This document shows, in pieces, positions 5,758-38,654 of a stretch of DNA of 46,463 nt. The first letter of the stretch is position 1; each line of letters begins with the position of its first letter. Both the position numbers and the translations under genes were made by a program. A model generated the notes under the pieces. It was not told where the DNA came from. It saw only the letters and a list, made by a program, of their open reading frames with translations, and searched no databases. The stretch comes from a virus. Location: IMG/VR virus record IMGVR_UViG_3300009009_000020, positions 1-46,463 of that record; one strand, 5' to 3'.

Positions 5758-5760
5758 TTA

Positions 5761-5833
5761 TGCTCCTTGCGTGGATCGAACACGCCTCAGGCGAATTATG
5801 AGTTCGCTGCATTCACCAGATTGCTAAAGGAGC
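5761..5833 (-). tRNA. tRNA-Met (anticodon CAU)
   Basis: The minus strand folds as a full cloverleaf. The acceptor stem is GCTCCTT/AAGGAGC, the D stem GCA/TGC, the anticodon stem GCGAA/TTCGC with loop CTCATAA, and the T arm GCGTG-TTCGATC-CACGC, with discriminator A at 5761. No CCA is encoded. The CAU anticodon means Met. A lysidine-modified Ile tRNA with the same anticodon cannot be ruled out, but the neighbouring UAU tRNA makes that less likely. It is 4 nt downstream of tRNA-Ile and probably co-transcribed from the promoter at 5924-5952. Confidence 0.9.
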
Positions 5834-5837
5834 AAGG

Positions 5838-5909
5838 TAGGACTGCTGAGAATTGAACTCCGTTCACACCGTTATAAGCAGTGGGCCTTAACCAATAGGC
5901 GACAGTCCC
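5838..5909 (-). tRNA. tRNA-Ile (anticodon UAU)
   Basis: 72-nt cloverleaf. The acceptor is GGGACTG/CAGTCCT with a G-U at the first pair, the D stem GCCT/AGGC, the anticodon stem CACTG/CGGTG around loop CTTATAA (anticodon TAT), and discriminator A at 5838. The T stem CGGAG/CTCAG has one G-A mismatch, the only clear defect. It would read AUA codons, which are common in this AT-rich phage and usually rarer in marine Synechococcus, so a translation-supplementing role is likely. Confidence 0.85.
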
Positions 5910-37862: not shown

Positions 37863-38024
37863 TTATTCAGAATCCTCAAAAATTTCGTCGTAATCTAAAA
37901 TTGGTTTTTTTCTCATTGGTTCTTTATCTTTATATGCAGAAACATCTGAATAAACTTCTGCTTTTAGAGAATCAACCAACAATTCAAGATTACGAACAAT
38001 TAGTTTTAGTTTTTCTTTGTCCAT
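37863..38024 (-). CDS. Small hypothetical protein, 53 aa
   Basis: Starts at ATG 38024 (MDKEKLKLIVRNLELLVDSLK). An amphipathic helix is followed by a basic patch MRKKP and an acidic tail ending EIFEDSE. It is the first gene after the terminator/promoter at 38047-38084 and ends 1 nt before the 55-aa gene, so it opens the early replication operon. Upstream in-frame starts fall in the promoter and are rejected. Confidence 0.65.
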   Translation of the reverse strand: MDKEKLKLIVRNLELLVDSLKAEVYSDVSAYKDKEPMRKKPILDYDEIFEDSE

Positions 38025-38075: not shown

Positions 38076-38084
38076 TCCCTCCTT
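38056..38084 (-). terminator. Strong intrinsic terminator after the microprotein cassette
   Basis: Minus strand stem AAGGAGGGA/TCCCTCCTT (38076-38084 and 38062-38070), 5-nt loop, then a run of T. It lies 12 nt after the stop of the 27-aa ORF, so it closes that operon. Confidence 0.9.
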
Positions 38085-38095
38085 AAATTATTTAA

Positions 38096-38179
38096 TTACT
38101 TATAAATCATTTGAATAAACAAGGACAATATAGTAATAAACGTAACGGATGCAACTGTAATTTGTGCGATAATTAGCAT
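38096..38179 (-). CDS. Single-pass membrane microprotein, 27 aa
   Basis: ORF MLIIAQITVASVTFITILSL then FIQMIYK: one hydrophobic helix nearly the whole length, with a short polar C-terminal end. Strong ribosome site GTAGGAG 7 nt before the ATG, and TAATG overlap with the 31-aa ORF stop. In size and shape it recalls the tiny membrane subunits of photosystems and cytochrome b6f, but I see no match to a specific one. It might also act on a host membrane protein. Confidence 0.65.
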   Translation of the reverse strand: MLIIAQITVASVTFITILSLFIQMIYK

Positions 38180-38274
38180 TACTTCGCTCCTACGTTTGCA
38201 AGAAGTGCCTGATAGCGTCTTTGTTCTTTTTGCTTTTGCTCTTTAATAAGTTGAAGTACATTAATTTTTTTCAT
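38179..38274 (-). CDS. Basic helical microprotein, 31 aa
   Basis: ORF from ATG 38274 to TAA 38179-38181: MKKINVLQLIKEQKQKEQRR then YQALLANVGAK. A highly basic, Gln/Lys-rich amphipathic helix. Strong site AAGGAGGGG lies upstream, inside the end of the 45-aa ORF. Start and stop overlap both neighbours (TGATG and TAATG), so the three are translated as one unit. Function unknown. Confidence 0.65.
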   Translation of the reverse strand: MKKINVLQLIKEQKQKEQRRYQALLANVGAK

Positions 38275-38411
38275 CACTTATGCCCCTCCTTTACAAACTT
38301 AACACCACGATAAGTTTCGTTGTATTGTTGGGGTTGTTGCATCATTTGCTGTTGGTATTCAATACGCTTTTGAGTGTCATATTCAACACCACGATATACT
38401 ACTTTAGACAT
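38274..38411 (-). CDS. DUF4278-like microprotein with two YRG motifs, 45 aa
   Basis: ORF from ATG 38411 to TGA 38274-38276, with site AAGGAG about 8 nt upstream. The two copies of the YRGV motif (YRGVEYDTQKR near the start, YRGVKFVKEG near the end) separated by a Gln-rich stretch (QQQMMQQPQQY) are the layout of DUF4278, a small protein family of cyanobacteria. Probably host-derived. First ORF of the microprotein operon, directly after the structured leader. Confidence 0.7.
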   Translation of the reverse strand: MSKVVYRGVEYDTQKRIEYQQQMMQQPQQYNETYRGVKFVKEGHK

Positions 38412-38540
38412 TAGGGTTCTCCTTAGTTTTTTAGGTTAAAGAGCGTTCCTTCAGTCGGCGTTTGCGTTCGCTATTTGCGAATAGCGAATGAACGATCCGT
38501 TCCGCGTCGGCTTACTTCCGTCTGTTTTCCAGATGAACGT
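38412..38540 (-). other. Structured 5' leader RNA of the microprotein operon
   Basis: About 130 nt with no ORF I can support, clearly richer in G+C than the surroundings. It contains a 9-bp hairpin (arms 38467-38475 and 38480-38488, loop TGCG), a second hairpin GAACG-ATC-CGTTC (38490-38502) and two imperfect copies of a CGTTCC...GTCGGC element (38444-38460 and 38498-38511). It may stabilise the RNA, control translation, or itself be a small RNA. Confidence 0.6.
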
Positions 38541-38546
38541 AAGGTC

Positions 38547-38575
38547 ATTATAGACCTATTGCATTTATATAGCAA
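38547..38575 (-). promoter_or_regulatory. Sigma70-type promoter TTGCTA-N17-TATAAT
   Basis: Minus strand -35 TTGCTA at 38575-38570, 17-nt spacer, -10 TATAAT at 38552-38547. Predicted start about 38540. A late-like TATAAATG lies inside the spacer, so early and late use are both possible. Confidence 0.7.
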
Positions 38576-38578
38576 GTT

Positions 38579-38604
38579 AAAACTGTAACATCTGTTACAG
38601 TTTT
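38579..38604. promoter_or_regulatory. Perfect 12-bp palindrome containing GTA-N8-TAC (NtcA-type box)
   Basis: AAAACTGTAACA-TC-TGTTACAGTTTT is a perfect inverted repeat with a 2-nt centre. It contains GTA-N8-TAC, the binding core of the cyanobacterial nitrogen regulator NtcA. It sits just upstream of the -35 box, with its centre about 51 bp before the predicted start, not the usual 41. It could also act as a hairpin barrier or an operator for another protein. Confidence 0.55.
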
Positions 38605-38621
38605 AAAAAATCTTAAGGAGC

Positions 38622-38654
38622 AAAAAAATTGCCGGGATTTTTTCCCGGCAATTT
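38622..38654 (-). terminator. Strong intrinsic terminator after the 118-aa gene
   Basis: Stem AAATTGCCGGGA/TCCCGGCAATTT (38626-38637 and 38643-38654), 5-nt loop, followed on the minus strand by a T run (38628-38622). It ends transcription coming from 38660-40231 and isolates the microprotein cassette. Confidence 0.92.

Follow-up and report, generated by a model that had tools for sequence, protein, structure and literature searches.

Three very short open reading frames (ORFs) that overlap one another on the minus strand of a viral genome raise the question of what controls such a compact cassette and on what part of host physiology it acts. In the 46,463-nucleotide window, namely the whole stretch of DNA that was analysed, the first-pass annotation described this cassette as self-contained and highly expressed, with a GC-richer leader of its own. 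That leader (GC content 0.47 vs. 0.347 for the whole window) is, as judged from its sequence, a glutamine (glnA, type-1) riboswitch, the main element that had been overlooked. We read the locus as a nitrogen-status-controlled microprotein operon of T4-like cyanophages, operating via an NtcA-like box and a composite glutamine riboswitch, with a probability of roughly 0.78. The support is sequence-based and consists of the RNA family, the nested pairing, conservation, coding selection, and the association with DUF4278.

The operon and its upstream signals

All features of the cassette lie on the minus strand. The ORFs encode proteins of 45 aa (ORF1, 38274–38411), 31 aa (ORF2, 38179–38274), and 27 aa (ORF3, 38096–38179) and are linked by TGATG (ORF1/ORF2) and TAATG (ORF2/ORF3) overlaps, as first described. 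Their SD sites, which match TAAGGAGG over 7, 7, and 5 bases, respectively, were likewise found to be the strongest in the window; among the other 25 of its 28 likely starts, one has 5 matching bases and the remainder 4 or fewer. Intrinsic terminators located by a terminator scan flank the cassette at 38654–38626, belonging to the upstream gene, and at 38084–38062, ending the operon, and the 2-kb stretch around the cassette holds 6 terminator-like sites vs. 0.8 expected. Concerning the sigma-70-type promoter (TTGCTA-17-TATAAT, 38575–38547), the hexamers are present and their position is kept in relatives, but the pattern alone occurs at chance level (8 sites vs. 7.1 in shuffles).

The order of the cassette is the same in isolates such as S-PM2, S-SZBM1, and S-B68, and dN/dS was below 1 in every informative pair of relatives for each of the three ORFs, with medians of 0.05 for ORF1 (the window's own type), 0.12–0.18 for ORF2, and, for ORF3, 0.33 in its own type and 0.17 in the other. 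These data indicate purifying selection on all three ORFs in relatives, so that the cassette, as a conserved and self-contained microprotein operon, is real by the evidence of its sequences.

The Rfam scan of the leader returned RF01739 twice, at 38440–38496 (33.1 bits) and 38498–38539 (20.6 bits), the second match being scored at 29.7 bits (38494–38541) in the genome search. Both values (33.1 and 29.7) are under the gathering score of 35, which is explicable by the nested arrangement described below, and relatives exceed it (37.8, 35.6, 35.4, 35.9, and 35.1). In S-CREM1, for which it has been annotated, the element stands before the homologous gene, as it does in S-PM2, P-SSM2, P-SSM7, P-TIM68, S-CAM7, DSL-LC02/03, S-SRM01, single-cell phages, and others, several of them over the threshold. 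The outer composite (38444–38539), as supported by RF01739, covariation, and folding energies, carries the family hallmarks, i.e., P1 (CGUUC/GAACG), P2, and the loop-E core CGGAAGUA / GAAGGAACG, and its core CGUUCA..CGGAAGUAAG..CUGAAGGAACG retains that of the crystallised aptamer (GAAGUAA / UGAAGC loop E; sequence quoted in PMC5393176). In the helix covariation test for membership of RF01739, none of 500 shuffles was as high on all five measures. The Rfam matches to Glutamine-II (type 2), PreQ1, IS128, and snoR111 were weaker or far below their own cut-offs and were rejected. Based on this sequence evidence, a glutamine riboswitch very probably controls the DUF4278 operon.

As a separate observation, a manA RNA (RF01745) lies directly 3' of the DUF4278 gene in two single-cell phages, AG-345-O18 and AG-345-E15 (contigs L021, 2179–2376, 184.7 bits, and L019, 2180–2381, 162.2 bits); both scores are far above the cut-off, and two different riboswitch-type RNAs thus stand side by side.

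The palindrome noticed in the first pass, GTAACAGATGTTAC at 38598–38585, has the form GTAN8TAC near the promoter and agrees with the marine NtcA consensus as used in PMC3037559; NtcA sites in cyanophages are already known from that work. Of 150 relatives, 140 have such a box in the 140 nt ahead of the aptamer, usually at a distance of 58–63 nt, vs. 152 of 4281 background windows (3.6%). With its centre at about −51.5 from the inferred transcription start, this putative NtcA site could activate or repress.

Several neighbouring features were also observed. A 53-aa phrog_878 ORF (37863–38024) starts just past the operon terminator; in S-PM2, P-TIM68, and S-SRM01, the cassette likewise has an ORF of this kind behind it, ahead of the thymidylate synthase gene. 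In the viral contigs L058, L101, L108, L126, and L128, an extra short ORF after ORF2/ORF3 encodes a different YRG protein (e.g., ..YHYDDMDKDNRPPACYQLTYRGCNYWSCY..). Elsewhere in the window (5760–5909), tRNA genes for Met (cat) and Ile (tat) are adjacent on the minus strand.

The operon proteins and their possible targets

ORF1 is strongly conserved, carries YRG in 142 of 143 cassettes, and matches phrog_5049 (2.5e-10). The claim that it has the two-YRG layout of DUF4278 finds support in its relatives, since each of the 15 that were aligned hits PF14105 with E<=0.01, the lowest value being 1.4e-7; the window copy itself stays at 19.7 bits, below the cut-off of 25.3. The first search for cellular homologues gave three matches only, two in Prochlorococcus single-cell assemblies (L223, AG-337-J18; L224, 189 kb, AG-418-C09) and one in a Dehalococcoidia MAG (L222, RS371). 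Their phage-type genes exceed the PF14105 cut-off. All three "bacterial" contigs carry the phage-type composite and are for that reason probably phage sequence.

The earlier descriptions of ORF2 as a soluble basic helix and of ORF3 as a single-pass hydrophobic peptide hold. ORF2 occurs in two sequence types, and its relatives hit phrog_545 in the N-terminal part, the members of this family being fusions with YRG repeats; ORF3 also has two types, ending ..SLYIQWLYK and ..FLIYAEVLLLNK. The suggestion that the small proteins are partners gains from fusions: S-CREM1 and some viral contigs encode ORF1 and an ORF2-type helix as a single protein, and S-T4 and the phrog_545 members do so with the two parts reversed, which is good evidence that both act together. 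As ORF2 or ORF3 is often absent in marine relatives, ORF1 is the constant member.

In cyanobacteria, according to a review (PMC6316151), glnA aptamers are found mainly with genes for DUF4278 proteins; the glutamine synthetase inactivating factor IF17, the expression of which is switched on by glutamine, has DUF4278 as its N-terminal part. Our scan of 30 cyanobacterial glnA loci found the same association: the next ORF carries YRG at 16 of them, many then with an IF7-like tail, others encode IF7-like proteins alone, and each of the 30 showed a single aptamer start. The phage cassette thus looks like a reshaped viral version of the host module. Because IF17 begins with DUF4278 and its genes share the riboswitch, the glutamine synthetase/inactivating-factor axis is the most likely site of action of the phage proteins, and we propose only tentatively that the operon acts on glutamine synthetase or its inactivating factors.

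How they would act can be thought of in two ways. The phage may have split IF17 in two, with ORF1 as the DUF4278 part and ORF2 as an IF7-like inhibitory helix that together inactivate glutamine synthetase directly. The riboswitch and the DUF4278 part are the same as in host gifB-like genes, the S-CREM1 fusion follows the gifB order, and ORF2 aligns with IF7 over 20 ungapped columns in the gifB register; the hhalign probability of this alignment is, however, only 1.3%, and its score was equalled by 6–9 of 150 column shuffles. The IF7-like domain with its AR.LM..NRQ..ML.R motif was not recovered in ORF2: of the three arginines best conserved in the motif, only one aligns with an arginine in the window ORF2, and the NCBIfam model for IF7A (NF052599) matches the host proteins but neither ORF2 nor the S-CREM1 fusion. 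With the profile score reached by about 4–6% of shuffles, ORF2 is not an established IF7 homologue. As the DUF4278 part is dispensable for IF17 function and serves stability (PMC6316151), reading the proteins as glutamine synthetase inhibitors is weakened further, and we regard a split IF17 as unlikely.

The same property of the DUF4278 part, which affects stability rather than inhibition (PMC6316151), fits the second way, in which the small proteins would protect or divert host inactivating factors or PII signalling and so keep glutamine synthetase active during infection; nitrogen is needed for phage growth. A weak PII-like match also covers the YRG: in the search of the ORF1 profile against PDB, the top two matches were nitrogen regulatory PII-like proteins (E about 0.07; positions 23–39, the second YRG). 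This match, which may be chance or T-loop mimicry, is borderline and disappears when a single sequence is used, and PII T-loop mimicry by the YRG was not adopted. We consider protection or diversion slightly less probable than the split factor. Two further searches concerned possible relatives of these proteins. PirA, a PII-interacting small protein, was rejected as a relative of ORF1, since DUF4278 goes with IF17 instead (PMC6316151) and our literature search found nothing linking PirA with DUF4278; the search of solved structures with ORF2 gave nothing meaningful.

A probable nested RNA, with reading frames in its arms in relatives

By covariation, the two weak matches in tandem very probably form a single nested fold. 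In copy 1, the loop-E core is represented by its 5' half (CG[G/C]AAGUA), and the GAA before GGAACG is missing; in copy 2, GAAGGAACG is present and the AGUA is missing; the bases after the AGUA of copy 1 are complementary to those before the GAA of copy 2. This complementarity forms a long-range P3, in which AGCCGACGC (38504–38512), directly after CGGAAGUA, pairs with ACGCCGACU (38453–38461), directly before GAAGGAACG. Between the strands lies an inner permuted module (38462–38503) composed of a GGAACG-GAU-CGUUCA hairpin, the P2' hairpin UUCGCUAUU-CGCA-AAUAGCGAA, and CGCAA. The nested pairing indicates a canonical aptamer into whose P3 arm another aptamer-like module, circularly permuted, is built, and the inner module may not bind glutamine because the loop-E bases are absent there.

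When 26 distinct compact leaders were aligned, 99.3% of P3 cells were paired, with pair 1 appearing as AU, GC, GU, and CG and pair 8 as GC, UA, and AU, and both sides were changed in 20 cells vs. 5.7 in shuffles. None of 500 shuffles reached the observed pairing, the number of double-changed cells, or the covariation score, and sliding the partner strand lowered the pairing to 13–36%. The two strand lengths also covary: in 199 of 205 records, strands of 9, 7, or 6 bases on one side go with 3' tails of 14, 12, or 11, respectively. The shuffle test leaves the kinship of the leaders in place, but two-sided changes in several lineages together with coupled lengths are hard to obtain from relatedness alone. 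RNAalifold, run without a supplied structure, paired the first CGUUC with the last GAACG as outer P1, and the nested fold of the window core was calculated at −25.4 kcal/mol, compared with −8.3 and −12.3 kcal/mol for the two halves alone.

Published tandems are usually read as two ordinary riboswitches in series, each with its own P1, that give steeper ("digital") control, and the separate Rfam matches would suit such a reading here. Tandem glutamine riboswitches have been described (PMC2864571), including 157 doublets (PMC9481103), and both copies have the same P1 strands, which makes local P1 pairing possible. Two complete aptamers with their own cores were, however, not found, as the loop-E halves are split between the copies and the helix is nested; the copies are linked by complementary rather than identical changes with coupled lengths, and minimum-energy folds were nested in 59 of 80 leaders and sequential in 1 of 80. 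A serial arrangement is thus improbable.

The hairpin UUCGCUAUU-CGCA-AAUAGCGAA (38467–38488) was seen as a nearly unchanged P2' in many phages; the same hairpin is the outer P2 in DSL-LC03 and, in altered form, in S-SZBM1, a distribution that resembles that of a movable cap.

In many relatives, the loop of P2 (outer) or P2' (inner) reaches 90–260 nt and holds an open frame with its ATG atop the arm; the window leader is without either insert. Nearly half of the relatives have such a 49–68-codon ORF within P2 or P2'. Automatic scoring found it in 15 of 21 composites from isolate or single-cell phages, and in 26 of 55 of the ORF1-homology set and 23 of 68 of a set picked for compact P2', both of which are biased sets. 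Five long loops were scored as without an ORF, a count that includes Syn19, in which the ORF is visible by eye with its start just outside the scripted limit, and S-B68, for which the scan took a preceding chance CGUUCA as its starting point. ORFs of the P2' type have their start codon within the arm (UCUAUGG/CCAUAGA, UCCCAUG/CAUGGGA), and their final codons and stop lie in the sensor core (..GACGCAAAAGUUGACUGA = DAKVD stop), and one outer-type ORF ends GGACGCAAGUAA (GRK stop).

Five named families of embedded ORFs gave median dN/dS values of 0.11–0.33, with all pairs below 1, and the values were similar after dropping the codons that overlap the aptamer. The encoded proteins have a hydrophobic N-terminus in common and usually two cysteines, and some belong to phrog_504, phrog_6471, or phrog_13397, all families of unknown function. 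The arms also pair better with their own partners than with shuffled ones: compact outer P2 arms formed 5.14 pairs vs. 2.30 when shuffled (maximum 2.81) and inner P2' arms with an ORF 5.59 vs. 3.99 (maximum 5.18), while the arms of the outer ORF set (4.14 vs. 4.03) are too uniform for discrimination. The embedded ORFs suggest a competition, in relatives, between the sensor and a second protein for one and the same RNA. If the folding of the sensor on glutamine and the translation of the embedded gene are mutually exclusive, one RNA would serve two alternative protein programmes, the embedded protein being made at low glutamine and the DUF4278 operon at high glutamine, and the window would represent the compact form of this gene-bearing switch. 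We consider it possible but doubtful that an interlocked two-module glutamine switch, with aptamer arms doubling as genes, picks between the two programmes in this manner.

Proposed regulation and relation to known systems

The first proposal, taken as a cassette that is early, constitutive, and highly expressed and has no metabolite control, is the least probable reading: the strong SD sites and the promoter-like sequence of its own would fit it, but the leader is conserved, structured, covarying, and of a known glutamine-sensing family, the NtcA-like box is conserved, and "highly expressed" is better replaced by "nitrogen-status-regulated" because the leader is a glutamine riboswitch.

Under the preferred reading of a nitrogen-status-controlled operon, host NtcA would probably act at the upstream box and repress or tune transcription under nitrogen shortage; repression under nitrogen starvation is the host logic for such genes, which we infer to apply to the phage box by analogy. 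Transcription would start roughly at the first aptamer nucleotide, i.e., with the composite riboswitch. Glutamine, if bound, would close P1 and the loop-E core (AGUA/GAA) and thereby open the ORF1 SD, and by analogy with host work, it probably turns the leader ON. In the candidate expression platform (38419–38443), CUCUUUA just after P1 can pair with the ORF1 SD UAAGGAG in the minimum-energy fold and would be the SD-pairing partner in this phage. A 7-base anti-SD match was present in 39 of 82 distinct leaders, and partition-function folding with vs. without outer P1 raised SD exposure in 26 of 80 and lowered it in 6 of 80; in this phage type, formation of P1 does not free the SD according to RNAfold (0.01 to 0.03 unpaired), and the calculations did not reveal switching. 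The open SD would allow more translation of the DUF4278-like protein, its basic-helix partner, and the membrane peptide, which would then act on the host glutamine synthetase/inactivating-factor axis. The virus would thus probably read, and perhaps adjust, the nitrogen state of its host.

If this is true, many T4-like cyanophages, among them the model isolates S-PM2, P-SSM2, and Syn19, sense host glutamine via RNA and answer with small proteins from the host's own glutamine synthetase control family, which gives testable handles on how these phages cope with host nitrogen limitation. For RNA biology, the locus offers a permuted second aptamer module inside a first riboswitch and, in relatives, protein-coding genes inside an aptamer arm; current annotation and the published tandem survey would set aside or misread both forms. 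Host DUF4278 with a glutamine riboswitch, the S-CREM1 glnA element (PMC9964418), tandem glnA, and cyanophage NtcA sites are already known. The nested fold, the reading frames within the aptamer, and the operon of three proteins are apparently new, as our literature search found none of them, although priority is not certain.

Compared with the crystallised aptamer (GUA-AGGCCC...GGGCCU-GAAG; PMC5393176), the outer part has the same layout, but its P3 holds the inserted circularly permuted module GGAACG-NNN-CGUUCA-P2'-ACGCAA. The published tandems (PMC2864571, PMC9481103) likewise place two glnA-like segments ahead of one gene and are read as two riboswitches in series, whereas covariation here favours one interlocked structure; those doublets, from which PMC9481103 set aside cases with intervening ORFs or long gaps, may include phage cases. 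The S-CREM1 element has the same composite leader and promoter box before a 48-aa fusion of a DUF4278-like protein and a helix, and it is annotated as one cis-regulatory element, with the downstream family, the nested fold, and the NtcA box unmentioned in the accessible part of PMC9964418. In Prochlorococcus MED4, PMM1846 combines DUF4278, an NtcA motif in the promoter, and a glutamine riboswitch, like the phage locus with its small DUF4278 protein; it is a host gene in the group with type-2 riboswitches, and the accessible part of PMC6316151 mentions no partners like ORF2/ORF3. Phage ORF1 shares with IF17 the DUF4278 part, control by a glutamine riboswitch, and small size, but has two YRG rather than three and is without the IF7-like tail, being followed instead by a separate helix protein without demonstrable IF7 homology. 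Finally, the gifB leader of Synechocystis (type-1, RF01739) has P1, P2, the CGGAAGUA..GAAGGAACG core, and a downstream DUF4278 gene in common with the phage element, which differs in being phage-borne, in a P3 extended by the permuted module, in its two local Rfam matches, both under the cut-off, and, in its relatives, in the ORFs carried within P2 or P2'.
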